NCBI RefSeq assembly: GCF_018866245.1
Contig: NZ_CP076458.1
Coordinates: forward strand, 1,116,001-1,180,000
Length of the DNA stretch: 64,000 nucleotides
Source: Novisyntrophococcus fermenticellae
GTDB taxonomy: Bacteria; Bacillota; Clostridia; Lachnospirales; Lachnospiraceae
Direction: 5' to 3'
This document shows, in pieces, positions 18,841-29,578 of this stretch (the first letter of the stretch is position 1; every line of letters starts with the position of its first letter). The notes under the pieces were generated by a model. That model made no database searches and was not told where the DNA came from. It saw only the letters and a list, made by a program, of their open reading frames with translations. The translations under genes and the position numbers were made by a program.

Positions 18841-19390
18841 TTTCCAGAAGTAAAGTGTGTCATTTTTTGATTTTGAGAGGTCATAAAGTAAATCTGTATG
18901 AAAAGTCAGACAAACTGGGAGGAATGTTTATTGCAGCTTCATCTATGAGCTTTAAAAAGGCAGACAGAAAACTTATTTCCTGGTATGAAAGACAGATGAA
19001 AGAGACAGGTGTTACGGTTCATATGAATTGTAATGTGACATTGGATATGGTGGCGATTGAAAAGCCGGATGTGGTTTATGTTGCAACGGGTTCTGTGCGG
19101 CAAATGAAAACATGCTTAGAATGGCTATTGAACAATATCAGATTGGTATTCATACAGATACAAAGATTGTTAAAATATCCGAAGAGAGTGTTACAATTGA
19201 GAGGGACGGCAAACAGTCAGTTCTTGCGGCTGATACCGTAATCAGCAGTATCGGATATATTTTCGAGAATTCACTTGCACAGCAATTAAAGGATTGTGGT
19301 GCGCAAGTCGAAACACTTGGGGATTGTGATCATGTATCCAACTTAATGGGAGCAATATGGAAGGCATTTGAATCAGCAAGTAAAATTTGA
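18841..19390 (+). pseudogene. Broken flavin oxidoreductase (2-enoate reductase type)
   Basis: Two pieces in different frames match the C-terminal FAD/NAD-binding half of NADH:flavin oxidoreductases of the 2-enoate reductase/FadH type. The first (about 18850-19110) includes GHKVNLYEKSDKLGGMFIAA and DVVYVATGSVRQ. The second (19112-19390) includes VISSIGYIFEN and the LGDCDHVSNLMGAIWKAFE end. The N-terminal barrel is absent and sequence is missing between the pieces. It is debris lying between two functional clusters. Confidence 0.75.
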
Positions 19391-19440: not shown

Positions 19441-19456
19441 AATGTAAAAAAATAAG

Positions 19457-19485
19457 TTGACAATTGGAAAATCAGGATGTATAAT
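19457..19485 (+). promoter_or_regulatory. Consensus sigma-A promoter of sulfur operon
   Basis: TTGACA at 19457-19462 and TATAAT at 19480-19485 are exactly 17 bases apart, the full consensus. Transcription should start near 19492, about 60 bases before the leader peptide. A promoter this strong needs control afterwards, which fits the leader attenuator that follows. Confidence 0.85.
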
Positions 19486-19550
19486 CAGTAGCATAATAAT
19501 AACCTATAAAGCATATCGTATTAGTAGGAAATAAGAAAGGAAGCAATGCT

Positions 19551-19658
19551 ATGGAAAACTTAAACGTAACAAGTGATAAAAATGGCATGATGTATTGTTG
19601 TTGCCAGGCTGTATGTACAAATACAGTTTATTTTTCATATGCATTGTGTACCGGGTAA
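19551..19658 (+). CDS. Cysteine-rich leader peptide
   Basis: An AAAGGAAG ribosome site precedes ATG 19551. The 35 residues run MENLNVTSDKNGMMYCCCQA and onward, with cysteine codons at positions 16, 17, 18, 22 and 33 (TGT TGT TGC, TGT, TGT). Cysteine is normally the rarest residue, so three in a row in a tiny frame ahead of cysteine synthase is the mark of an attenuation leader whose translation measures charged Cys-tRNA. An intrinsic terminator follows 18 bases after the stop. A role as a cysteine-rich peptide product is possible but less likely. Confidence 0.7.
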   Translation: MENLNVTSDKNGMMYCCCQAVCTNTVYFSYALCTG

Positions 19659-19713
19659 ATATGCAGTATATTTGCAGGCAGGTGTCATAAGCATATGGCA
19701 TCTGCCTTCTTTA
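19636..19713 (+). promoter_or_regulatory. Leader attenuator: terminator and competing pairing
   Basis: AGGCAGGTGTCAT at 19676-19688 pairs, with G-U pairs, with ATGGCATCTGCCT at 19695-19707 and is followed by TCTTTA: an intrinsic terminator ahead of cysK. CATATGC at 19636-19642, inside the leader frame, is complementary to GCATATG at 19691-19697, which forms the loop and part of the 3' arm. A ribosome stalled at the Cys-Cys-Cys codons would leave 19636-19642 free to pair and break the terminator; one reaching the stop would cover it. The pairings are seen; the switching is inferred. Confidence 0.6.
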
Positions 19714-19776
19714 TACCAAATTATGTAGTTTTTGCAGCTGAGGAACAAACAAATTAAAATTATGGAGGTAATGATT

Positions 19777-20715
19777 ATGAGTAAGATTAAAGAAAGTGCA
19801 TTGGAATTAGTTGGAGGAACACCAGTATTAAAACTCAACCGTTATACAAAGAAAGCGGGGGCTTCCGAGGCAACAATCCTTGCTAAACTGGAATACTTGA
19901 ATCCGGCAGGTTCTGTCAAAGACAGAATAGCTCTTGCAATGATTGAAGATGCAGAGAAGAAGGGAATTCTTAAGGAAGGGGCAACCATTATTGAACCAAC
20001 AAGTGGAAATACCGGGATTGGTCTTGCAGCAGTTGCGGCAGCAAAGGGATATAAAACAATACTTACTTTACCGGATACTATGAGTGTGGAAAGAAGAAAT
20101 CTTTTAAAAGCATATGGTGCTGAACTGGTTCTTACAGAAGGTGCAAAGGGAATGAAGGGCGCAATTGCAAAAGCCGACGAGCTTGCACAGGAAATCCCCG
20201 GAGCAGTCATTTTAGGGCAGTTTGTAAATCCGGCGAATCCGGCAGTTCATAAAGCGACCACAGGTCCAGAGATTTGGGAGCAGACAGATGGGAAGGTGGA
20301 TATCTTTGTTGCAGGGGTCGGTACCGGAGGAACAATTACCGGTGTTGGCGAATATCTGAAGGAGCAGAATCCTGATATAAAGATTGTAGCCGTTGAACCG
20401 GCCGGAAGCCCTGTGCTTTCCACAGGAACACCGGGTGCTCACAAGATACAGGGTATCGGGCCGGGATTTGTTCCGGAAGTACTTAATACAAAGATCTATG
20501 ATGAAATCATCACAATTGAAAATGAGGATGCGTTCGCAGAAGGTAAGGCGTTTGCAGTCAGTGAAGGTATTCTGGTCGGCATTTCATCCGGTGCTGCACT
20601 AAAGGCTGCTGTGATCTTAGCAAACAGACCCGAAAATAAAGGGAAGACGATTGTCACATTGCTTCCGGATTCGGGAGACAGATATTTATCTACTCCGCTA
20701 TTTGGCAATAATTAA
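19777..20715 (+). CDS. cysK: Cysteine synthase (O-acetylserine sulfhydrylase)
   Basis: TATGGAGG precedes ATG 19777. The 312-residue protein has the pyridoxal-phosphate lysine Lys48 in NPAGSVKDR, the substrate loop TSGNTG (75-80), and the phosphate-binding GTGGTITG. It makes cysteine from O-acetylserine and sulfide in the cytoplasm. It is the first structural gene after the cysteine leader and is followed by a YezD-family gene and nitrogenase-like genes. Its position suggests that it fixes sulfide or thiol set free by the reductase downstream. Confidence 0.93.
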
Positions 20716-20746
20716 GGATGAACTATCTGCCCGGAGGTGAATATGT

Positions 20747-20905
20747 ATGAGGCAAACTGAAATCAATCATGTTTTGGATACTTTACATTTAAAAGAAATA
20801 GAAGGATTGATACGTGATCTGAAATATGGAAGTATAACAATTATTGTTCAGGATGGCAAGGTTATCCAGATTGATAAGACAGAAAAACACAGAATGAAGG
20901 CATGA
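20747..20905 (+). CDS. YezD-family (DUF2292) small protein
   Basis: CGGAGGTG precedes ATG 20747. The 52 residues include the family core LKYGSITIIVQDGKVIQIDKTEKHR. Members of this family are small cytoplasmic proteins that recur beside sulfate and cysteine assimilation genes in Firmicutes; their biochemical role is not known. Here it sits 31 bases after cysK, which supports a sulfur theme for the operon. A competing ATG four bases earlier gives only a five-residue frame. Confidence 0.85.
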   Translation: MRQTEINHVLDTLHLKEIEGLIRDLKYGSITIIVQDGKVIQIDKTEKHRMKA

Positions 20906-20985
20906 AATAAAACATGAATAAAGCGTCAATAAAGCATAGAATACATAGGATGTAAGGGTCAAAAAACAATAAAATGCTGACTGGG

Positions 20986-21035
20986 AAACCGGAGGTTTTG
21001 TTAATGAATTTAACAGACCTTCGGTTTTTGTTTTT
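20986..21035 (+). terminator. Terminator between yezD-like and nifB genes
   Basis: The 19 bases at 20986-21004 (AAACCGGAGGTTTTGTTAA) pair with 21009-21027, with one bulge and a few wobble pairs, and are followed by TTTTTGTTTTT. This is a strong intrinsic terminator inside the cluster, so the nitrogenase-like genes must rely on read-through, a conditional antiterminator or their own promoter. TAGAAT near 20936 is a possible -10 box. Confidence 0.75.
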
Positions 21036-21070
21036 AATATTTAGCTGGAAATCTGACAAGGAGGTGCAAA

Positions 21071-21943
21071 ATGAACAATACATATAAAAATCTGCAGAAG
21101 TCACATCCCTGCTTTGGCGGTCACAAGAATAATGTAGGGAGAATACATCTGCCGGTAAGCCCGGGGTGTAATATTGCCTGTCGGTTCTGCGACCGGGTGA
21201 TTAATGATGTGGAAGACCGGCCGGGTGTTACCTCTAAGGTAATCACACCGGATGAAAGTATTGAAGTATTGGAACAGGCTTTGAAGATCTGCCCGGAGAT
21301 TACAGTAGCAGGAATTGCAGGTCCGGGAGATACCCTTGCGTCCGGCTACGCCTTACAGACTTTTCGAAAAGTAAAAGAGAGATTTCCCCAATTAATCAAG
21401 TGTATGAGTACGAATGGATTACTTTTATATGAAAAGGCCGATGAGGTGATTGATATCGGGATTGATTCTCTTACAGTTACGGTGAATGCCGTAGATCCTG
21501 AAATCGAAGAAAAGCTTAATAAATATATTATTTACCATGGGAGAAAATACGAGGGAATAGAAGGGGCGGAGATACTGATTGAGAATCAACTGAAAGGAAT
21601 TAAAAAGGTGTCTGATGCAGGAATTACCATAAAAGTAAATTCTGTTTTAGTCCCGGAAATCAATGGTGAGCATATCGAAGCCATTGCAAAAACTGTGAAG
21701 AAGGCAGGCGCAAGTATTGATAATATTATTCCACTGATTCCTCAGGCTGAACTTTCCTGCCAAAGGGCACCTGTCTGCTCAGAAATTGATGCGGCCCGAA
21801 CAAAAGCTTCCAAATATATTGATGTGTTCAGACATTGTCAGCACTGCAGAGCAGATGCAGTTGGCGTACCCGGGAAGTCTGAATTTGGAGATCAGATTTA
21901 TCAGCGCAGAATATCTGTAAAGGAAACATTTTCACATGGATAA
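21071..21943 (+). CDS. nifB: NifB radical SAM cofactor protein
   Basis: AAGGAGGTG precedes ATG 21071. The 290-residue protein has the NifB start HPCFGGHKNN, the radical SAM cluster motif Cys33-x3-Cys37-x2-Cys40 in SPGCNIACRFC, and the C-terminal CQHCRADAVG (Cys256, Cys259). NifB fuses two 4Fe-4S clusters with a carbide and extra sulfur to make the 8Fe core of nitrogenase cofactors. This is the short form without a fused NifX domain; NifX-like proteins are encoded separately next door. Its presence argues that the reductase downstream carries a NifB-derived cluster. The stop overlaps the next gene by eight bases. Confidence 0.92.
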   Translation: MNNTYKNLQKSHPCFGGHKNNVGRIHLPVSPGCNIACRFCDRVINDVEDRPGVTSKVITPDESIEVLEQALKICPEITVAGIAGPGDTLASGYALQTFRKVKERFPQLIKCMSTNGLLLYEKADEVIDIGIDSLTVTVNAVDPEIEEKLNKYIIYHGRKYEGIEGAEILIENQLKGIKKVSDAGITIKVNSVLVPEINGEHIEAIAKTVKKAGASIDNIIPLIPQAELSCQRAPVCSEIDAARTKASKYIDVFRHCQHCRADAVGVPGKSEFGDQIYQRRISVKETFSHG

Positions 21944-22301
21944 TACGGAATATAAATACCGGATAGCGGTAGCAACAACAGATGGAATCGTGGTAAATCA
22001 GCATTTTGGAAGAGCAGATGAGTTTCTGATCATAGGCCTGGATTGGCAAAATCAAATACACCGGATTGAAAAACGTCAGGTAAACCCAGTCTGTGATGGT
22101 GGCGAACACGATGAAAAAAGGCTTGAAACCACAGTCAACATGTTTACGGACTGCAAATATGTATTGGTGAGCAGAATTGGGGAGGGTGCTGCTTATGCGC
22201 TGGAAAAATCAGGTATTATCCCTATAGAGTTTCCGGGAATTATTGAAGAGTCAGTGCAAAGGATTCTCGTACAAGAGTTAGTTTTAAGCATTTATTTATA
22301 G
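21936..22301 (+). CDS. NifX/NafY-like cofactor-binding protein
   Basis: The 121-residue protein has the dinitrogenase iron-molybdenum cofactor fold: RIAVATTDGIVVNQHFGRADEFLII at the start, CDGGEH in the middle and a closing LEKSGIIPIEFPG. Such proteins carry the NifB product or mature cofactor between assembly steps. The gene overlaps nifB, suggesting direct hand-over from NifB. A second relative lies after the nifK-like gene (26043-26429); the two are clearly different and may act at the two ends of the delivery path. Confidence 0.85.
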   Translation: MDNTEYKYRIAVATTDGIVVNQHFGRADEFLIIGLDWQNQIHRIEKRQVNPVCDGGEHDEKRLETTVNMFTDCKYVLVSRIGEGAAYALEKSGIIPIEFPGIIEESVQRILVQELVLSIYL

Positions 22302-23165
<864 letters not shown>

Positions 23166-23183
23166 GAGAAGGAGAACACTACT

Positions 23184-23249
23184 ATGGTAAAGGTCACAGG
23201 ACTTAGATATCTCTCAACAAATTTGTTTCGTGAAGATCAGGAGGTGTAA
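23184..23249 (+). CDS. Possible 21-residue small protein
   Basis: Behind GAGAAGGAG, ATG 23184 opens a 21-codon frame (MVKVTGLRYLSTNLFREDQE and one more residue) that ends three bases before the start of the nifD-like gene. The ribosome site of nifD lies inside its last codons, so it might couple translation of the nifH- and nifD-like genes. It matches nothing I recognise and could be chance. Confidence 0.35.
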   Translation: MVKVTGLRYLSTNLFREDQEV

Positions 23250-23252
23250 AAA

Positions 23253-24716
23253 ATGGCACTTAATTTAGAAAATTCCAATGTTGCTACCAGAGAGAATCGA
23301 ATCGGTTCAATTACAGGCTATATTGGGACATTAAGTGATTTGGCAAATCAGAGCAGCTGCGGCACATTAAAGGGATGCTCCAGATGCTTTTCACAATCCA
23401 GTACATGTTTATCCAGCTGTGCATTAGGGCAGCTTTCCGCAATTCGTGATGTGGCAATTATCCATCATGGACCAGCAGGATGTTCGGCAGCCAGTGCAGG
23501 TGCATATTATCTTGATAAGGTAATGGCAAAGAAGCGCGGAGTCACTACGAATACAGTATATATTGGAACTGACATGAATGAAAATGACACGATTTTCGGT
23601 TCGGCAGAAAGTCTTAGAAAAATCATACTTGAGGTAAATAAGAGGTATTCACCTAAGGCAATATTTGTAACAAGCTCCTGTGCTACGGGAATTATTGGTG
23701 AAGATATCGACAGTGTGGTAGATGATGTGAAAGATGAAGTGGAGGTACCAATTGTGGCGGTGCACTGTGAAGGATTCAAGTCCAGAATATGGGCAACCGG
23801 ATTTGATATTTCTGACCATGCAGTGCTGAGCTCTATCGTACAGCCTCCCAGACAGAAGAGAAACACCATAAATTTCAAGAACTTCTATGAAAGTGCAAGA
23901 CCTGAAATCATAGAAATTTTTAAAAACTTTGATCTGGAACCAATTTTTCTTTATTGTAACTCCACAATAGAAGAACTAAGCCATATATCGGAGTCGCTTG
24001 CAACCACATGTATCTGTGGAACGCTTGGAAATTATCTTGGAAATGGTCTGGAAGAAACATATGGGGTTCCGTATATCAGAACGATAAATCCTCTTGGTAT
24101 TGCGGGTTTTGAAACCTGGCTCAGGGAGATAGGAAGAGTGACAGACAGGTCGGAAGCTGTGGAGAATTATATAGAAGAACAAAGAAAAATCTATATTCCG
24201 CAGATTGAAGAAATCAAGAAGGAATTAAAAGGTTTAAGGGCAGTACTTGGCATGGGGCCGGGGTATACATTCGAAGTATCCCGAGTTTTAGATGAACTTG
24301 GAGTAGAAGTAGTGTGGGCACTGGCCTGGCATTACGACAAAAAGTATGAAAATGGTGAGGTTCCCCCATCCATGAAATATCTTTTGGAAAATGATGTGGA
24401 TTTTGAAGCCAGTGTTGCCGATCAGCAGAACTATGAGGTGATGAATATTCTGAAAAAATATCAGCCGGATTTATATCTTTCACGTCATCCCGGTTCTACG
24501 GTATGGGCGATTAAGAATGGGACTCCTGCTGTATATGTTGCAGACGAATATATGATCTTTGGATATAAGCACACTTTGGAATTCGCACAATCGATTCTGG
24601 ACAGTATTCATAACAGAAGTTTTGAAAAGAATCTGGCAAGAAGAGTGAAACTTCCTTATACAGACTGGTGGTATCAACAGAATGTAGATAAATTTTTAGA
24701 GGAGGCTAAAAAATAA
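23253..24716 (+). CDS. NifD-like catalytic subunit of nitrogenase-like enzyme
   Basis: This 487-residue subunit keeps the P-cluster cysteines of NifD: Cys52/Cys56 region, Cys77 in HHGPAGC and Cys143 in SSCATGIIGED. In the cofactor domain Cys255 lines up without gaps with FeMo-co ligand Cys275 of Azotobacter NifD, because both lie 16 residues before the shared EE-Y-G motif (here LEETYGVPY). The region matching the histidine ligand His442 reads AVYVADEYMIFGY and offers no histidine. So a P-cluster and a cysteine-bound cofactor are likely, with an altered active site. AGGAGGTG serves ATG 23253. Substrate unknown; an organic sulfur compound is suggested by context. Confidence 0.87.
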   Translation: MALNLENSNVATRENRIGSITGYIGTLSDLANQSSCGTLKGCSRCFSQSSTCLSSCALGQLSAIRDVAIIHHGPAGCSAASAGAYYLDKVMAKKRGVTTNTVYIGTDMNENDTIFGSAESLRKIILEVNKRYSPKAIFVTSSCATGIIGEDIDSVVDDVKDEVEVPIVAVHCEGFKSRIWATGFDISDHAVLSSIVQPPRQKRNTINFKNFYESARPEIIEIFKNFDLEPIFLYCNSTIEELSHISESLATTCICGTLGNYLGNGLEETYGVPYIRTINPLGIAGFETWLREIGRVTDRSEAVENYIEEQRKIYIPQIEEIKKELKGLRAVLGMGPGYTFEVSRVLDELGVEVVWALAWHYDKKYENGEVPPSMKYLLENDVDFEASVADQQNYEVMNILKKYQPDLYLSRHPGSTVWAIKNGTPAVYVADEYMIFGYKHTLEFAQSILDSIHNRSFEKNLARRVKLPYTDWWYQQNVDKFLEEAKK

Positions 24717-26014
24717 TGGCAAAGCTATTAGATAAACAAAGATATAAATGTGCGATGGGTGCAATGCAGACGGTACAGGCAATCTCCAGAGCCATTCCGG
24801 TATTGCATTCCGGGCCCGGGTGTGCACAGAAGCTTTCCGATTCCATTGGAAGTTCAGGATATTTTTCACCAAATATCTTCCCCTGTACCAGTATTAATGA
24901 AAAAGATGTAGTATTCGGCGGAGTGAAAAAACTGGAAACCACGATTGAAAATTCATTAAAGGTGATTGATGCAGATTTCTATGTGGTTCTTACAGGATGT
25001 ATACCGGAAATCGTGGGTGATGATACAGGTGAGGTGGTAAGCCATTTTGAAGATGCCGGCAAACCGGTAATCTATGCATCGACGGCAGGATTTAAAGGTA
25101 ACAACTATATAGGACATCAACAGATTATCGATGCAATCACAGACCAATATCTTGAAAAGTCTGAAGAACGGGAAAAAGGACTGGTGAATATTTGGGCTGA
25201 TGTTCCCTATCAGGATTTATTCTGGCTTGGCAATATCAGGGAGCTGGAAAAACTAGTAAAAGAATTAGGATTGACTCCGAACACAATATTCGGATACCAG
25301 CGTGGAATTGACAATATTAACAAAATCCCAAAAGCGGAATTCAATCTGCTGGTTTCTCCCTGGGTATCCGTTGAAAATATGAAGAAAATGGAGAAAAAGC
25401 TTGGTATTCCATACCTTCATTATCCCACACTTCCGATTGGTGCATTTGAGACCACGAAGTTCTTAAGAGAAGTCGGTAAATTTGCAGGTGTTGATGAAGA
25501 AAAGGTAGAAAATATTATCAATAAGCATGAAAATTATTATTATTATCTGATTGAAAGGTATGCCGATCTGTTTCTGGAAACAAGGGTTATGGCAAAACAA
25601 TTTTCGGTAGTGGCAGATGCCCAGTATACACTTGGTATCACGAAGTTTTTAGTAAATGATTTAGGACTTGTGCCAGCGAAGCAATTTGTTACAGATGATA
25701 CCCCGAAGGCTTTCCAGGAACAGATTAAAGAAGAATTTGAAAGATTGAATTATGGATTGAAGGCAGAGGTAAGGTTTGAGACAGATGGCTACAAAATACA
25801 AAATGAGATTAGGGAACATGACTATCATGGCTACCCACTCATTCTCGGAAGCTATTATGAGAAGGAAATTGCAGAGGAAATGTCTGGACATTACTTAAAT
25901 ATCTCGTGGCCTGTACAGGATAAAGTGGTGCTGGATGATTTCTATGTGGGTTATACCGGCGGAATCCGGCTGATAGAGGATATTTATTCGGTGGCAGTAC
26001 AGAGATGGAATTAG
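24716..26014 (+). CDS. NifK-like subunit of nitrogenase-like enzyme
   Basis: The 432-residue protein keeps the NifK P-cluster ligands Cys12 (KCAMGAMQ), Cys36 (HSGPGC) and Cys95 (LTGCIPEIVGDD), matching Cys70, 95 and 153 of Azotobacter NifK. It is shorter than NifK (about 520) because the long N-terminal extension is missing. Its ATG shares a base with the NifD-like stop (TAATG), which implies coupled translation and an equal subunit ratio, as in an alpha2-beta2 enzyme. The last part (about 325-432) differs from NifK most. Confidence 0.87.
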   Translation: MAKLLDKQRYKCAMGAMQTVQAISRAIPVLHSGPGCAQKLSDSIGSSGYFSPNIFPCTSINEKDVVFGGVKKLETTIENSLKVIDADFYVVLTGCIPEIVGDDTGEVVSHFEDAGKPVIYASTAGFKGNNYIGHQQIIDAITDQYLEKSEEREKGLVNIWADVPYQDLFWLGNIRELEKLVKELGLTPNTIFGYQRGIDNINKIPKAEFNLLVSPWVSVENMKKMEKKLGIPYLHYPTLPIGAFETTKFLREVGKFAGVDEEKVENIINKHENYYYYLIERYADLFLETRVMAKQFSVVADAQYTLGITKFLVNDLGLVPAKQFVTDDTPKAFQEQIKEEFERLNYGLKAEVRFETDGYKIQNEIREHDYHGYPLILGSYYEKEIAEEMSGHYLNISWPVQDKVVLDDFYVGYTGGIRLIEDIYSVAVQRWN

Positions 26015-26042
26015 GATGTAAACCACACAAGGGAGGTGACGT

Positions 26043-26429
26043 ATGTCTTATAAGATAGCAATCGCTTCTTCTGATGAAAAGCAGATTGATGAAACATTTG
26101 GTTTGGCAAAACGTTTTCTTATCTATCAGGTATCTGGTGGTCATTATGTAAAACTGGAGGAAAGAATCGTAAAACAGGATATTCATCCATCGGACTGTGA
26201 AACTGGTTCCGGTGGAGGGTGTGCAGGGGGTGCGGGTACATCTGCCAGGGTAGAGCTTTTGACAGACTGCAGGTGCGTTGTCTGTAAAAAGGCGGGTTTC
26301 AACATTCAGAAGCAACTTGAGAGAAAAGCAATCGCGGTTTTCGATGTTAACTGTTCGGTAGAGGAGGCCTTAGTAAAAATATCCCATTATTTTAGCAGGA
26401 TAGATAGTCATCAGTCTCTTAGAGGATAA
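26043..26429 (+). CDS. Second NifX-like cofactor-binding protein
   Basis: GGGAGGTGA precedes ATG 26043. The 128 residues follow the NifX fold (YKIAIASSDEKQIDETFGLAKRFLIYQ) but carry an extra glycine/cysteine loop, GSGGGCAGGAG, near residue 60, and several cysteines (DCRCVVCKKAG). The loop could bind a metal cluster. Placed directly after the NifK-like gene, it may insert or protect the cofactor in the catalytic subunits. It differs from the NifX-like protein at 21936. Confidence 0.8.
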   Translation: MSYKIAIASSDEKQIDETFGLAKRFLIYQVSGGHYVKLEERIVKQDIHPSDCETGSGGGCAGGAGTSARVELLTDCRCVVCKKAGFNIQKQLERKAIAVFDVNCSVEEALVKISHYFSRIDSHQSLRG

Positions 26430-26487
26430 CAAAATATAATTGACCAGAAAGTAGAAAATCCGCAGAGAAGAAGGAGGAGTAATTATT

Positions 26488-27327
26488 ATGAAAAAAATAT
26501 GGAGAAAGTCTGGAATAGCGCTTATAGCATTCAGTTTATTTTTTATCACACTTTTGACGGGCTGTGGCAAAAGTGAAACAAATAAATCAGGAAAATCAGG
26601 AAAGGAAGCAACGAAGATTATAGTTGGAACCGGCAATGGATATAGCCCATACTGCTATCTCGATGAAAAAGGAAATCTGGCCGGGTATGAATATGAAGTA
26701 TTAAAAGCGGTCGACGAATTACTTCCACAGTATGAGTTTGAATTTCAAACTTCAGATTTTACAAACGTGCTGATTTCTCTTGATGCAGGAAAAATAGATA
26801 TTGCCGCACATCAATATGAGTATAATGATGAAAGAGCGTCAAAATATCTATTTGGAGAAGAACCATATACAACATTTGTAACATATATCGTTGCCCCGAA
26901 AGAAAACGCTTCTATTCAGTCATTGGATGATCTTCAAGGGAAGACAATATATGCCGGTGGAAAAGGCTCGAATACCACATATATTCTCGAAAATTACAAT
27001 AAAGAGCATGCTGATAACCCGATAACGATCATAAATTCTGAGGCAATTACCTCGGAGGAATTCGTACAGGGATTATTGAGTGGAAAATGGGATGCGGCTG
27101 TTGCAACGAAACGTGATGTTGAAAAGCATAACAAAACATACGGTTCGGATGTATTGGTCACAGCAGGTGAGCCCATACAGTCCTCGTCTACCTACTATAT
27201 TTTTGATAAAAAAAATAAAGAACTGAAAGAGGCTGTGGATGGAGCTATCCGTGAGCTTAAGAAGAGTGGCAGATTAGCAGAAATCTCAATTGACGTAATT
27301 GGCGGAGATTACACGGAAAGCGAGTAA
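26488..27327 (+). CDS. Amino-acid ABC transporter binding lipoprotein (cystine type)
   Basis: GAAGGAGG precedes ATG 26488. The signal peptide ends in LLTGC (Cys26). The remainder is a family 3 solute-binding protein: VGTGNGYSPYCYLDEKGNLAGYEYEVLKAV, KIDIAAHQYEYNDERASKYLFG and SIQSLDDLQGKTIYAGG. Its form is closest to the TcyJ/TcyK group, which binds cystine and other sulfur compounds. It sits behind the nitrogenase-like genes and ahead of two permeases and an ATPase, so it probably imports the sulfur compound that the enzyme reduces, or cystine. Confidence 0.85.
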   Translation: MKKIWRKSGIALIAFSLFFITLLTGCGKSETNKSGKSGKEATKIIVGTGNGYSPYCYLDEKGNLAGYEYEVLKAVDELLPQYEFEFQTSDFTNVLISLDAGKIDIAAHQYEYNDERASKYLFGEEPYTTFVTYIVAPKENASIQSLDDLQGKTIYAGGKGSNTTYILENYNKEHADNPITIINSEAITSEEFVQGLLSGKWDAAVATKRDVEKHNKTYGSDVLVTAGEPIQSSSTYYIFDKKNKELKEAVDGAIRELKKSGRLAEISIDVIGGDYTESE

Positions 27328-27331
27328 TGAT

Positions 27332-28039
27332 ATGGGTGATTTATTTCAATGGAGCAGACTATTTCAAAATTTTAGAATAATCATTCCATTTATCACAGTT
27401 ACTTTCAGGATAGTAGTATATGCTACCGTATTCGGTCTTATAATTGCACTGGCTCTGGCACTGGTAAGGATAAAAAAGATACCAGTATTATATCAAATTT
27501 CAAACCTGTATATTTCATTTATGCGCGGAACGCCGATGCTGCTTCAATTGCTGCTGGTGTATTATGGGCTTCCGATTATTCTGGAGCCTGTCGTGCACAT
27601 TGACGTCACAAGAGTATGGGATAGTATAATCTTTGCATACGTTACCTTTTCATTTAATCAGGGGGCTTTTTTATCATCTATTATCTATAGTGCTGTCAAG
27701 GCTGTAAGTATAGGGCAATTTGAGGCAGGCTATAGTGTGGGTCTGACCTGGTGGCAGACATTTAGAAGAATTATTGTACCACAGGCAGTGAGAATAGCAT
27801 TACCACCATTTGGTTCTGATCTGGTAGGATTATTTCAGAATGCATCCCTGGTGTTTTCAATTGGTGTAATCGATGTTATGGGAAGGGCAAAGACAATTGG
27901 AACCTCCAGTGGGCATGTGTTTGAGGCATATTTAGATGTGGCAGTCATATTTATTCTCTGCAGTCTTATCATCAGGGGAATTTCCTCATGTTGCAATAAA
28001 AAGCTTGATTATAGTGCAGGAAAAGAGGTGAGGGAATGA
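27332..28039 (+). CDS. Amino-acid ABC transporter permease 1 (TcyL-like)
   Basis: A 235-residue HisM-type permease with about five helices, including the binding motif for the ATPase, EAGYSVGLTWWQTFRRIIVPQAVRIALPP. I chose ATG 27332, five bases after the binding-protein stop; an earlier frame start inside that gene is not supported by a ribosome site. It pairs with the permease downstream to form a heterodimeric channel, as in the TcyL/TcyM system for sulfur amino acids. Confidence 0.85.
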   Translation: MGDLFQWSRLFQNFRIIIPFITVTFRIVVYATVFGLIIALALALVRIKKIPVLYQISNLYISFMRGTPMLLQLLLVYYGLPIILEPVVHIDVTRVWDSIIFAYVTFSFNQGAFLSSIIYSAVKAVSIGQFEAGYSVGLTWWQTFRRIIVPQAVRIALPPFGSDLVGLFQNASLVFSIGVIDVMGRAKTIGTSSGHVFEAYLDVAVIFILCSLIIRGISSCCNKKLDYSAGKEVRE

Positions 28040-28740
28040 ATATTCGTCTGGATGCAATCGGAGAAAGTCTGGTCTATGCAATCAAATACCTGCCGGAGAC
28101 ATTAAAATTAATATTTATTCCATTAACAATTGGCCTGTTTATTGGAACAGTGACAGCATTGATTCGTGTCTATCGTACACCAGTCTTAAGTCAGTTTTTG
28201 GCACTGTTTATAACGATTTATCAAGGGATACCGATAGTGGTAGCATTGTTTTTGTATAACATTTTGTACTTAATGAAGTTCAATGATATTTTGGAGGCAC
28301 TCCACATAACCAAAACAATAGCGGATATAGACAGCATATGGATCGGCATATTTGCTCTTACGATGTCAGCTGTCTGTACGATTTCAGAAGTAATGAGAGG
28401 CGCCCTCTTATCAATAGACAAAGGTCAGAATGAAGCTGGATTTTCCGCAGGTTTGACAAAGGTTCAGATAGTCAGGAGAATCATTCTGCCTCAGGTAGTT
28501 CCCGTCGCCATACCGCCATTAGTTAACAGTATTGTCGGTCTGATTAAAGGCTCGTCTATTGTATATGTGATTGGAATCGCTGAAGTTCTATCAGGTGCAC
28601 TCATCCCCAGTGCGAGAAGGTATACCTTTTTTGAAGGCTACCTTGCAGCCGCACTGGTGTATTGGGGATTAACAATTATAATTGAAAAACTTGGGACGCT
28701 GATTGAGGAACATTTAGGAAAATTCAGGAGGTCGTTATGA
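28036..28740 (+). CDS. Amino-acid ABC transporter permease 2 (TcyM-like)
   Basis: The 234-residue protein is the partner permease, with five hydrophobic helices and the ATPase contact NEAGFSAGLTKVQIVRRIILPQVVPVAIPP. It overlaps the first permease by four bases (ATGA) and the ATPase gene by four, so the three are translationally coupled. GAGGTGAGGGA lies before the start. The presence of two different permeases fits the TcyJKLMN layout. Confidence 0.87.
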   Translation: MNIRLDAIGESLVYAIKYLPETLKLIFIPLTIGLFIGTVTALIRVYRTPVLSQFLALFITIYQGIPIVVALFLYNILYLMKFNDILEALHITKTIADIDSIWIGIFALTMSAVCTISEVMRGALLSIDKGQNEAGFSAGLTKVQIVRRIILPQVVPVAIPPLVNSIVGLIKGSSIVYVIGIAEVLSGALIPSARRYTFFEGYLAAALVYWGLTIIIEKLGTLIEEHLGKFRRSL

Positions 28741-29492
28741 TACAGGTAAAGCATATAAAAAAGTCCTTTGGCAAATTAAATGTTTTGAAAGATGTTTCCT
28801 TAGATGTAGGGGATGGTCAGGTAGTTGTATTATTGGGACCCAGTGGTTCCGGAAAAACCACACTGCTTAGATGTATCAATTTTCTGGAGCATGCGGATAG
28901 CGGAGAATTAACAATCGGGAATACGGTTGTAGAAGTAGATAAGGCCAGGAAAAAACAGATTCATGACATTCGAAAAAAAGTAGGATTTGTGTTTCAAAAC
29001 TATAATTTATTTGCCAATAAAACTGCGCTTGAAAATGTTATGGAAGGATTGGTTTTAGCTCAGAAAACACCTAGAAAAGAGGCTGAAAAAATAGCGAAGG
29101 AAACACTTGACTGGGTTGGACTTTCAGAAAAATACAGTTATTATCCATCGCAGTTGTCCGGCGGCCAGCAGCAAAGAGTCGGTATTGCAAGGGCCGTCGC
29201 ACTAAAACCGGAGGTTATTTTATTTGATGAACCAACATCGGCATTGGATCCGGAGCTCGTAGGAGAAATTTTGGATGTCATTAAGAGAGTCGCGCAAAAA
29301 GGGATCACAATGATAGTTGTAACACATGAAATGGCATTTGCTCAGGATGTTGCAGATAAAGTCGTATTTATGGATCGTGGAGTCATTGTGGAGGAAGGAG
29401 TTCCCTCAGAATTTTTTACGAAGCCCAAAGAAGAACGTACAAGACAGTTCTTATCAAGGTTTATTTCATTTGAACCAATTTATTACATATGA
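28737..29492 (+). CDS. Amino-acid ABC transporter ATPase (TcyN-like)
   Basis: The 251-residue ATPase has Walker A GPSGSGKT (about 34-41), a Q-loop VFQNYNLFANKTALENV, the signature LSGGQQQRVGIARA, Walker B VILFDEPTSALD and the switch His in VVTHEMAFA. It is of the polar amino acid import class. It is the last gene of the sulfur operon; a terminator follows. Confidence 0.9.
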   Translation: MIQVKHIKKSFGKLNVLKDVSLDVGDGQVVVLLGPSGSGKTTLLRCINFLEHADSGELTIGNTVVEVDKARKKQIHDIRKKVGFVFQNYNLFANKTALENVMEGLVLAQKTPRKEAEKIAKETLDWVGLSEKYSYYPSQLSGGQQQRVGIARAVALKPEVILFDEPTSALDPELVGEILDVIKRVAQKGITMIVVTHEMAFAQDVADKVVFMDRGVIVEEGVPSEFFTKPKEERTRQFLSRFISFEPIYYI

Positions 29493-29539
29493 ATCGCATG
29501 ACCTTTTGAAGCTGGTATCAGATAATCAGCTTAAACTTA

Positions 29540-29578
29540 AGTGGGCATATTTCTTAGGGGATATGCCCACTGTTTTTC
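29540..29578 (+). terminator. Terminator of sulfur operon
   Basis: AGTGGGCATAT at 29540-29550 pairs perfectly with ATATGCCCACT at 29561-29571 across ten bases and is followed by GTTTTTCT. It ends the transcript that began near 19490. Confidence 0.9.

Follow-up and report, generated by a model that had tools for sequence, protein, structure and literature searches.

A nitrogenase-like operon of a clade next to methylthio-alkane reductase, with a candidate cysteine-codon attenuator, in Novisyntrophococcus fermenticellae

Organisation of the operon

We analysed a 64,000-nucleotide (nt) stretch of the genome of Novisyntrophococcus fermenticellae (RefSeq assembly GCF_018866245.1, contig NZ_CP076458.1, positions 1,116,001 to 1,180,000; hereafter the window), in which a nitrogenase-like operon occupies positions 19457-29571 of the + strand. 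In our best reading, this operon encodes a new clade of nitrogenase-like reductase of the methylthio-alkane reductase (Mar) type, looks cysteine-controlled and would serve the cleavage of carbon-sulfur (C-S) bonds. Gene content and order were read from the letters and from profile matches; the ligand residues, clade, neighbourhood, leader, terminator and alternative pairing described below are likewise direct observations. All the genes named in a preliminary description of this DNA were found on the + strand and in the order it gave. L and G numbers are our own handles for loci and genomes, D and K stand for the NifD-like and NifK-like proteins, and statements drawn from cited papers refer to the excerpts of those papers that were consulted. 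The operon comprises the following features:

19457..19485, + strand: sigma-70 type promoter TTGACA-17-TATAAT, consensus match 12/12
19551..19658, + strand: leader open reading frame (ORF), 35 amino acids (aa), containing a run of Cys codons (MMYCCCQAVC); some relatives have homologous leaders
19676..19707, + strand: intrinsic terminator of the candidate attenuator; loop and 3' arm complementary to UCAUAUGC within the leader ORF (antiterminator)
19777..20715, + strand: cysK, cysteine synthase A (TIGR01139, 451 bits, cut-off 351)
20747..20905, + strand: DUF2292 small protein of 52 aa, OscA/YezD family (PF10055; OscA model 36 bits, under the cut-off of 85)
about 20981..21036, + strand: second hairpin with a T-run, terminator-like, in the DUF2292-nifB gap
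21071..21943, + strand: short NifB (radical S-adenosylmethionine (SAM) protein) without fused NifX domain (TIGR01290, 274 bits, under the cut-off of 344)
21936..22301, + strand: NifX-like cofactor carrier, of the NifB C-terminal domain type
22317..23165, + strand: NifH Fe protein (TIGR01287, 465 bits, above the nifH equivalog cut-off of 394)
23253..24716, + strand: NifD-like catalytic subunit of the Mar-sister clade (Cys52, 77, 143, 255, Arg411, His412)
24716..26014, + strand: NifK-like subunit (Cys12, 36, 95 at the MarK P-cluster ligand positions)
26043..26429, + strand: second NifX-like protein
26488..27327, + strand: solute-binding protein (SBP); nearest solved structure YtmK (TcyK)
27335..28039, + strand: amino-acid type ATP-binding cassette (ABC) permease
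28036..28740, + strand: ABC permease
28737..29492, + strand: ABC ATPase, TcyN-like (329 bits, under the cut-off of 406)
29540..29571, + strand: operon-end terminator, 14 pairs

NifB scores below the TIGR01290 cut-off because the fused NifX part is absent; its motifs HPCF and CxxCRADA are retained. The promoter is the sole 12/12 match among 31 promoter-like sites of the region and, as shuffled sequences gave a mean of 30.2 such sites, it is the perfect match alone that stands out. Terminator-like sites numbered 10 (shuffles 6.7, sd 2.9), and the two with 14 pairs stand out, i.e. those behind the leader (19676-19707) and at the operon end (29540-29571). The idea of a single promoter-to-terminator unit was thus only partly borne out: the perfect promoter and the end terminator agree with it, but a terminator lies before cysK and a second strong hairpin between DUF2292 and nifB. 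The attenuator structure, this second hairpin and a variant tRNA-Cys of relatives are new with respect to the preliminary description. No Rfam family matched the window at gathering score; within 19450-21080, three matches up to E 5 were obtained, each far below it.

The host genome is a single contig of 3.42 Mb with one full-length NifH match. Its PF00148 proteins are exactly two, the D and K of this operon, and that search returned no NifEN pair.

Relationship of D and K to methylthio-alkane reductase

The nearest solved relatives of D and K are MarD and MarK. The three P-cluster cysteines of D (C52, C77, C143) are present as in Mar, those of K (C12, C36, C95) match MarK, and the [Fe8S9C] ligands Cys270/His429 of Mar, together with Arg428, correspond to C255, H412 and R411 of D. 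The Arg-His pair occurs in 54 of the 89 aligned D rows, non-Mar clades included. By contrast with these shared positions, two residues near the Mar cluster differ, His194 being replaced by Ile179 and Cys73 by Gly59; His194 is restricted, among the 89 rows, to the four that form the Mar clade, i.e. Rhodospirillum rubrum and three phylum members. At the columns of nitrogenase Gln191, His195 and Gly424, D has Trp, Phe and Arg.

A first quick tree of the 89 rows had long branches, so that 24 rows (long or near-identical) were removed and a careful tree of 65 rows was built. In this tree the 43 rows that carry the Arg-His loop form one group (support 100/99), which splits into a Mar side of 20 rows (97/90) and a window side of 23 rows (100/99), within which the window's own D clade gathers 21 rows (100/100); eight nitrogenase-type rows stand separately (100/100). 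Judged by sequence, D resembles Mar in its residues yet falls outside the clade of characterised MarD, and D and K are not nitrogenase. A predicted model of D also resembles MarD, a likeness that is not independent of the sequence since the alignment guiding the model held MarD relatives. Neither Isr nor Nfa chains appear among the structural matches shown for D, a list that excludes nothing.

The first Mar paper is reportedly that of North in 2020. Mar and Isr are experimentally supported nitrogenase-like C-S systems (PMC12552129; PMC11423573). With respect to MarBHDK of R. rubrum (PDB 9FMG, 9D9U; PMC12552129), D is 33 % identical to MarD and in a separate clade, and the window operon adds CysK, two NifX proteins, a Cys leader and a TcyK transporter. 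We consider it decidedly unlikely that the operon is an ordinary MarBHDK, turning 2-methylthioethanol or dimethyl sulfide into methanethiol for methionine. Such an assignment would account for the same gene set (B, H, D and K in one operon), the ligand residues, the Arg-His loop and the top structural match, but the 33 % identity contrasts with the 72-81 % of the three MarD orthologs of the phylum towards R. rubrum MarD, and the two clades and both substitutions set D apart. Moreover, the neighbouring genes belong to cysteine supply and the leader is built on cysteine codons. MtnA (PF01008), which is required upstream in the R. rubrum route, is missing from five of eight operon genomes; the host has it.

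The window's NifH, for its part, is 85-95 % identical to others of the clade; it shares 82 % with the NifH adjoining a true MarD (L082), whereas the value for a full-length NifH adjoining a nitrogenase D is 74 % (66-79 % over cut ones). Its score above the nifH equivalog cut-off would fit a Group IV enzyme fixing N2, as reported for Endomicrobium proavitum; Igai 2016 (PMC4995403) regards relatives as potential N2 fixers and refers to 15N2 fixation in E. proavitum, whose NifD lacks the cofactor His. We nevertheless hold N2 fixation to be highly improbable here, given the absence of NifEN from the host genome, the Trp/Phe at the nitrogenase Gln191/His195 positions, the sulfur-gene neighbourhood and the Cys leader. 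The homocitrate synthase NifV exceeded its cut-off in none of eight operon genomes, a search that is not diagnostic as it also stayed under in Ruminiclostridium hungatei (L138, genome G600), a genome with 28 PF00148 matches.

The view that the enzyme is related to but distinct from MarBHDK, and wired to cysteine rather than nitrogen, was already proposed in the preliminary description and is upheld by sequence, tree, ligand residues, model, neighbourhood and Cys-codon leader. It had named clustering with true nitrogenases and nifEN elsewhere in the genome as contrary signs; D lies apart from nitrogenases and the genome holds no nifEN.

Neighbourhood in relatives

A scan of GTDB genomes yielded 271 relatives; the 80 best, each with a D identity of at least 84 %, were retained. 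Their titles name Lachnospiraceae, Ruminococcus, Ruminiclostridium, other Clostridia, Treponema and other spirochetes. Neighbours were counted in 81 loci, i.e. these 80 and the window, and the counts are lower bounds because many loci are cut. The K family was found in 79 loci (second K copies included), D in 77, the CysK family in 74, NifX in 72, NifH in 70, NifB in 60 and an ABC ATPase in 36, followed by a CGS/CGL-type pyridoxal phosphate enzyme (35), a PatB-type C-S lyase (31), LysR (26), Rrf2 (25), a second nifD-like gene (19), DUF2292 (18), NifS (13) and a CysE-like protein (11). Family names rest on one representative each, and those of CGS/CGL and CysE-like fall below equivalog cut-offs. 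A second CysK-like gene lies between nifH and nifD in many relatives, not in the window. The operon neighbours of relatives are, by predicted function, cysteine and thioether enzymes.

Comparable surroundings have been described. Nitrogenase-like proteins with a Cys275 equivalent are commonly encoded near OAH (O-acetylhomoserine) sulfhydrylase or cysteine synthase, and a role in sulfur metabolism was already suggested for such Group IV proteins in 2012 (Dos Santos 2012, PMC3464626); the excerpt of that paper describes no leader, tRNA or Arg-His loop for them. Other nitrogenase-like genes occur near sulfur genes or in heliobacteria (PMC10418091, PMC13067680, PMC9147875): in anaerobes, Mlp clusters with IV-A MarHDK-like genes lie beside sulfur genes (PMC10418091), and a termite spirochete has an operon of nifDK with cysteine synthase (PMC13067680), the partners differing in both cases from those seen here. 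In the openly licensed PMC literature, at the level of titles and abstract openings, we met no description of the operon, the leader or the tRNA.

The second hairpin after DUF2292 is conserved, and a CTGG-GAAA-CCGG element overlaps its 5' arm. A hairpin with a T-run occurs in 32 of 48 gaps, some perhaps being tRNA stems, and the sequence motif in 27 of 60 loci.

A second nifDK-like pair lies downstream in 19 of the 81 loci (e.g. L093 8653-10104 and L112 12913-14352). Its D keeps the P-cluster cysteines and the cofactor Cys and is without the Arg-His loop and Trp195; the pair may serve as a scaffold or form a second enzyme. Two NifD-like matches carry one in-frame stop each (G367:C1:2825798-2827255, L012; G406:C18:23108-24529, L065).

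A candidate cysteine-codon attenuator

In the 81 loci, small ORFs that have a ribosome site and lie no farther than 400 nt ahead of a gene numbered 381, and a terminator followed 66 of them. Three Cys within six residues were found in 26 ORFs, 19 of which had a terminator behind; the same rule applied to other residues gave, for example, with a terminator, 9/56 for Leu, 8/32 for Lys, 8/29 for Ser, 3/5 for Pro and 2/3 for Met. Eighteen of the 26 Cys-run ORFs stand at the start of the nitrogenase-like operon (15 with a terminator), and the eight located elsewhere may be due to chance. Looser rules add three leaders at operon starts (L173, L175 and L188), and a narrower script recovered 16/58, missing some of these leaders.

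Behind the Cys run, a segment shows complementarity to the terminator's loop and 3' arm, and this pairing is retained in changed form among relatives: UCAUAUGC/GCAUAUGG in the window, UCAUGUGU/ACACAUGG in L143, ACACUUUU/AAAAGUGU in L180 and CCUUUUG/CAAAAGG in L169. The best pairing is shorter (5-6 pairs) in L110, L137 and L165. In an alignment of ten rows, 87.5 % of cells pair, a value equalled by 1 of 500 shuffles. At E<1e-5 a covariance model matched 16 of 80 sources, including ten training rows; leaders outside the training rows at this threshold are those of L188, L096, L150, L100 and L138, with four more weak ones, and the L093 match has the same coordinates and score as L180. Searched against the host genome, the attenuator model R1 scored 124 bits at the operon; six other matches, at most 31.8 bits with E of 0.02 and up, were taken as chance, the best of them having no visible Cys-rich ORF.

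We propose this leader as a candidate cysteine-codon attenuator with a terminator and a competing antiterminator, new here. Leaders of actinobacterial cys operons (PMC1262725) are likewise short upstream ORFs with a run of Cys codons; no terminator hairpin was found for them in the excerpt of that study, whereas the window, in Clostridia, has a terminator and an antiterminator. Another Cys-rich leader-like ORF (L172 13009-13140, also in L167 and L168) precedes another set of genes, our families fam36-38 together with an ABC ATPase.

tRNA-Cys genes in the operons of relatives

Of the 30 tRNA genes that ARAGORN found in 60 relative loci, 27 are tRNA-Cys; 26 sit inside the operon immediately ahead of nifB (for example L155 5758-5827), and the remaining one, in L145, is located elsewhere. 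Counted by position, 22 of the 47 readable gaps from cysK/DUF2292 to nifB hold a tRNA-Cys, and two more would if nifB started later. With three loci added (L088, L096 and L098), 29 tRNA-Cys (GCA) were compared:

First part: L112, L114, L122, L124-L129, L131, L133, L134, L137, L139, L144
Second part: L146, L147, L150, L151, L155, L165, L168, L171, L172, L180, L188, L088, L096, L098

All 29 are 70 nt long, their acceptor stems are paired throughout, and the discriminator base is in every case a purine (15 G, 14 A), compared with U in the canonical tRNA-Cys of the host. U73 is the main identity base for cysteinyl-tRNA synthetase (CysRS). For covariation, three near-copies were excluded, leaving 26 tRNAs (25 distinct): 9 of the 20 cloverleaf pairs are changed on both sides, as many as in none of 500 shuffles, and the anticodon stem has one A-G mismatch position in 25/25. 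This conserved fold argues against decay. The window has no tRNA-Cys gene in its operon. In the host genome, where 150 of 206 candidates were scored and 58 tRNA matches listed, every listed match measures at least 71 bases.

As in these relatives, SepRS/SepCysS operons (PMC5424206) hold a tRNA-Cys within a cysteine operon with sulfur genes. In contrast, neither enzyme was recognised among the named neighbour families, in which they were not searched for, and the 29 tRNAs have a purine at position 73.

Proposed mechanism

We regard it as probable that this is a cysteine-starvation operon around a Mar-neighbouring, nitrogenase-like reductase, whose reductive C-S cleavage supplies cysteine and which is governed by ribosome-mediated attenuation. 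For the cluster type, reaction, substrate and direction of regulation we infer the following. NifB and the two NifX-like carriers would build and deliver an [Fe8S9C] cluster, to be held by Cys255 and His412 of D and fed with electrons from NifH through a P-cluster of six cysteines. The enzyme would then reductively cleave a C-S bond in a small thiol or thioether, most likely of the amino-acid type, and CysK would build the reduced sulfur (sulfide or thiol) into cysteine. The TcyK-type transporter and, in relatives, PatB/CGL-type lyases would feed this step. When Cys-tRNA is plentiful, the leader would be translated and the terminator would form; when ribosomes stall at the Cys codons, the downstream segment would pair with the terminator loop and 3' arm and allow read-through.

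Sulfite as the product was considered in 200 genomes of the host's family, 25 of which had a D match at E<=1e-40. Fourteen of these, the host included, were taken as near-orthologs (65-100 % identity, one a fragment). An NIR_SIR sulfite reductase was found in 3 of the 14 near-ortholog genomes (the host, G568 and a fragment in G548) versus 94 of the 186 others, some genomes being 72-99 % complete; this contrast speaks mildly against sulfite. A survey of PF01507 (CysH/CysD) over 200 genomes of the family was set aside, as this protein family mixes several enzymes.

Sulfite would be expected of a sulfonate reductase acting on isethionate, taurine or cysteate, like IsrBHDK of Rhodobacter capsulatus (PMC11423573). 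That system is also nitrogenase-like, of group IV and devoted to sulfur assimilation, C-S cleavage has been proposed for it and it needs an ABC transporter; some relatives have NMT1-type transporters, and the host could use sulfite with its AsrABC. However, IsrD keeps one of three P-cluster cysteines and lacks the cofactor Cys (PMC11423573), all of which D has, the Isr radical SAM protein IsrB is not NifB-like while that of the window is, and a sulfite reductase match was absent from 11 of the 13 other near-ortholog genomes. An Isr-type activity therefore seems very unlikely.

Several results weigh against the cysteine-starvation reading. The operon NifH scores 477 bits with nitrogenase NifH and 288 bits with MarH, and is closer to the former. 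The sulfite reductase contrast is weak (Fisher p 0.050 with the host, 0.019 without it), and the host has an AsrABC anaerobic sulfite reductase with an adjoining NirA-like protein (G000:C1, about 933.3-937.8 kb, L206), so that sulfite could still be the product in the host. Three antiterminator pairs are changed on both sides, as many as in 88 of 500 shuffles (10 sequences), the pair types are reached by 391 of 500, and a slide by +2 columns is nearly equal in covariation score (0.350 vs 0.358); the antiterminator covariation appears modest and mixed, supportive without being proof. A recognisable leader occurs in a minority of relatives only, most being without one, and the R1 search revealed no further attenuator copy and no wider regulon in the host genome. 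Finally, the cystine-type transporter reported in the preliminary description is indeed present in the window but is not conserved: the window SBP family occurs in 7 of the 81 loci and an NMT1-type SBP (fam19) at the same place in 8, which makes the transporter the variable part.

Bearing on gut nitrogen-fixation surveys

In human faeces, Igai 2016 (PMC4995403) reported Cluster III nifH operational taxonomic units (OTUs), of which OTU-08 is 98 % identical to Lachnospira multipara NifH and OTU-34 more than 97 % to that of Lachnospiraceae bacterium 3-1, among others, and Clostridiales were named candidate fixers. L. multipara ATCC 19207 (L161) and Lachnospiraceae 3-1 (L151) each have one NifH match at E<=1e-20, located within the operon, and exactly two PF00148 proteins, both in the operon; the single NifH match of Butyrivibrio LC3010 (L184) is likewise that of the operon. 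The D of Lachnospiraceae 3-1 equals that of L. multipara at twelve aligned residues. The same paper states that the NifD histidine is kept in other members of that clade, and Klebsiella or other organisms may be the source of its 15N data. Since the sole NifH of both strains lies in the operon, calls of N2 fixers from gut Cluster III nifH may mark sulfur scavengers, the link from OTU to strain resting on published percentages of identity rather than on OTU sequences.

If the sulfur role holds, counting such genes as nitrogen fixers would mislead, and Cluster III nifH sequences nearest L. multipara or Lachnospiraceae 3-1 offer a concrete, testable correction of the 2016 candidates. A widespread clade of gut and rumen would join the small set of nitrogenase-like enzymes for which a role outside nitrogen metabolism is plausible, and for this clade the Cys leader is an independent regulatory argument. 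The operon also raises, in culturable strains, the question of its substrate (thiol or thioether) and of a tRNA-Cys variant without the standard identity base.

A bolder and rather unlikely extension would unite these elements in a cysteine famine programme, in which an attenuator-switched new C-S reductase, with a substrate of its own, releases sulfide from a thiol or thioether that the cell imports, and sister species add, from the same operon, a second tRNA without the CysRS identity base. That tRNA, with its Cys anticodon, would be charged little, or with another amino acid, and could act as a famine sensor at the leader Cys codons or let ribosomes spend fewer cysteines. If this were true, the broad distribution among gut and rumen bacteria would mean that part of the nitrogen fixation counted in the gut is sulfur scavenging.

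Flanking sequence

Directly upstream of the operon, at 18855-19390 of the window, lies a broken remnant in two frames that looks, by eye, like a flavin/NADH oxidoreductase.

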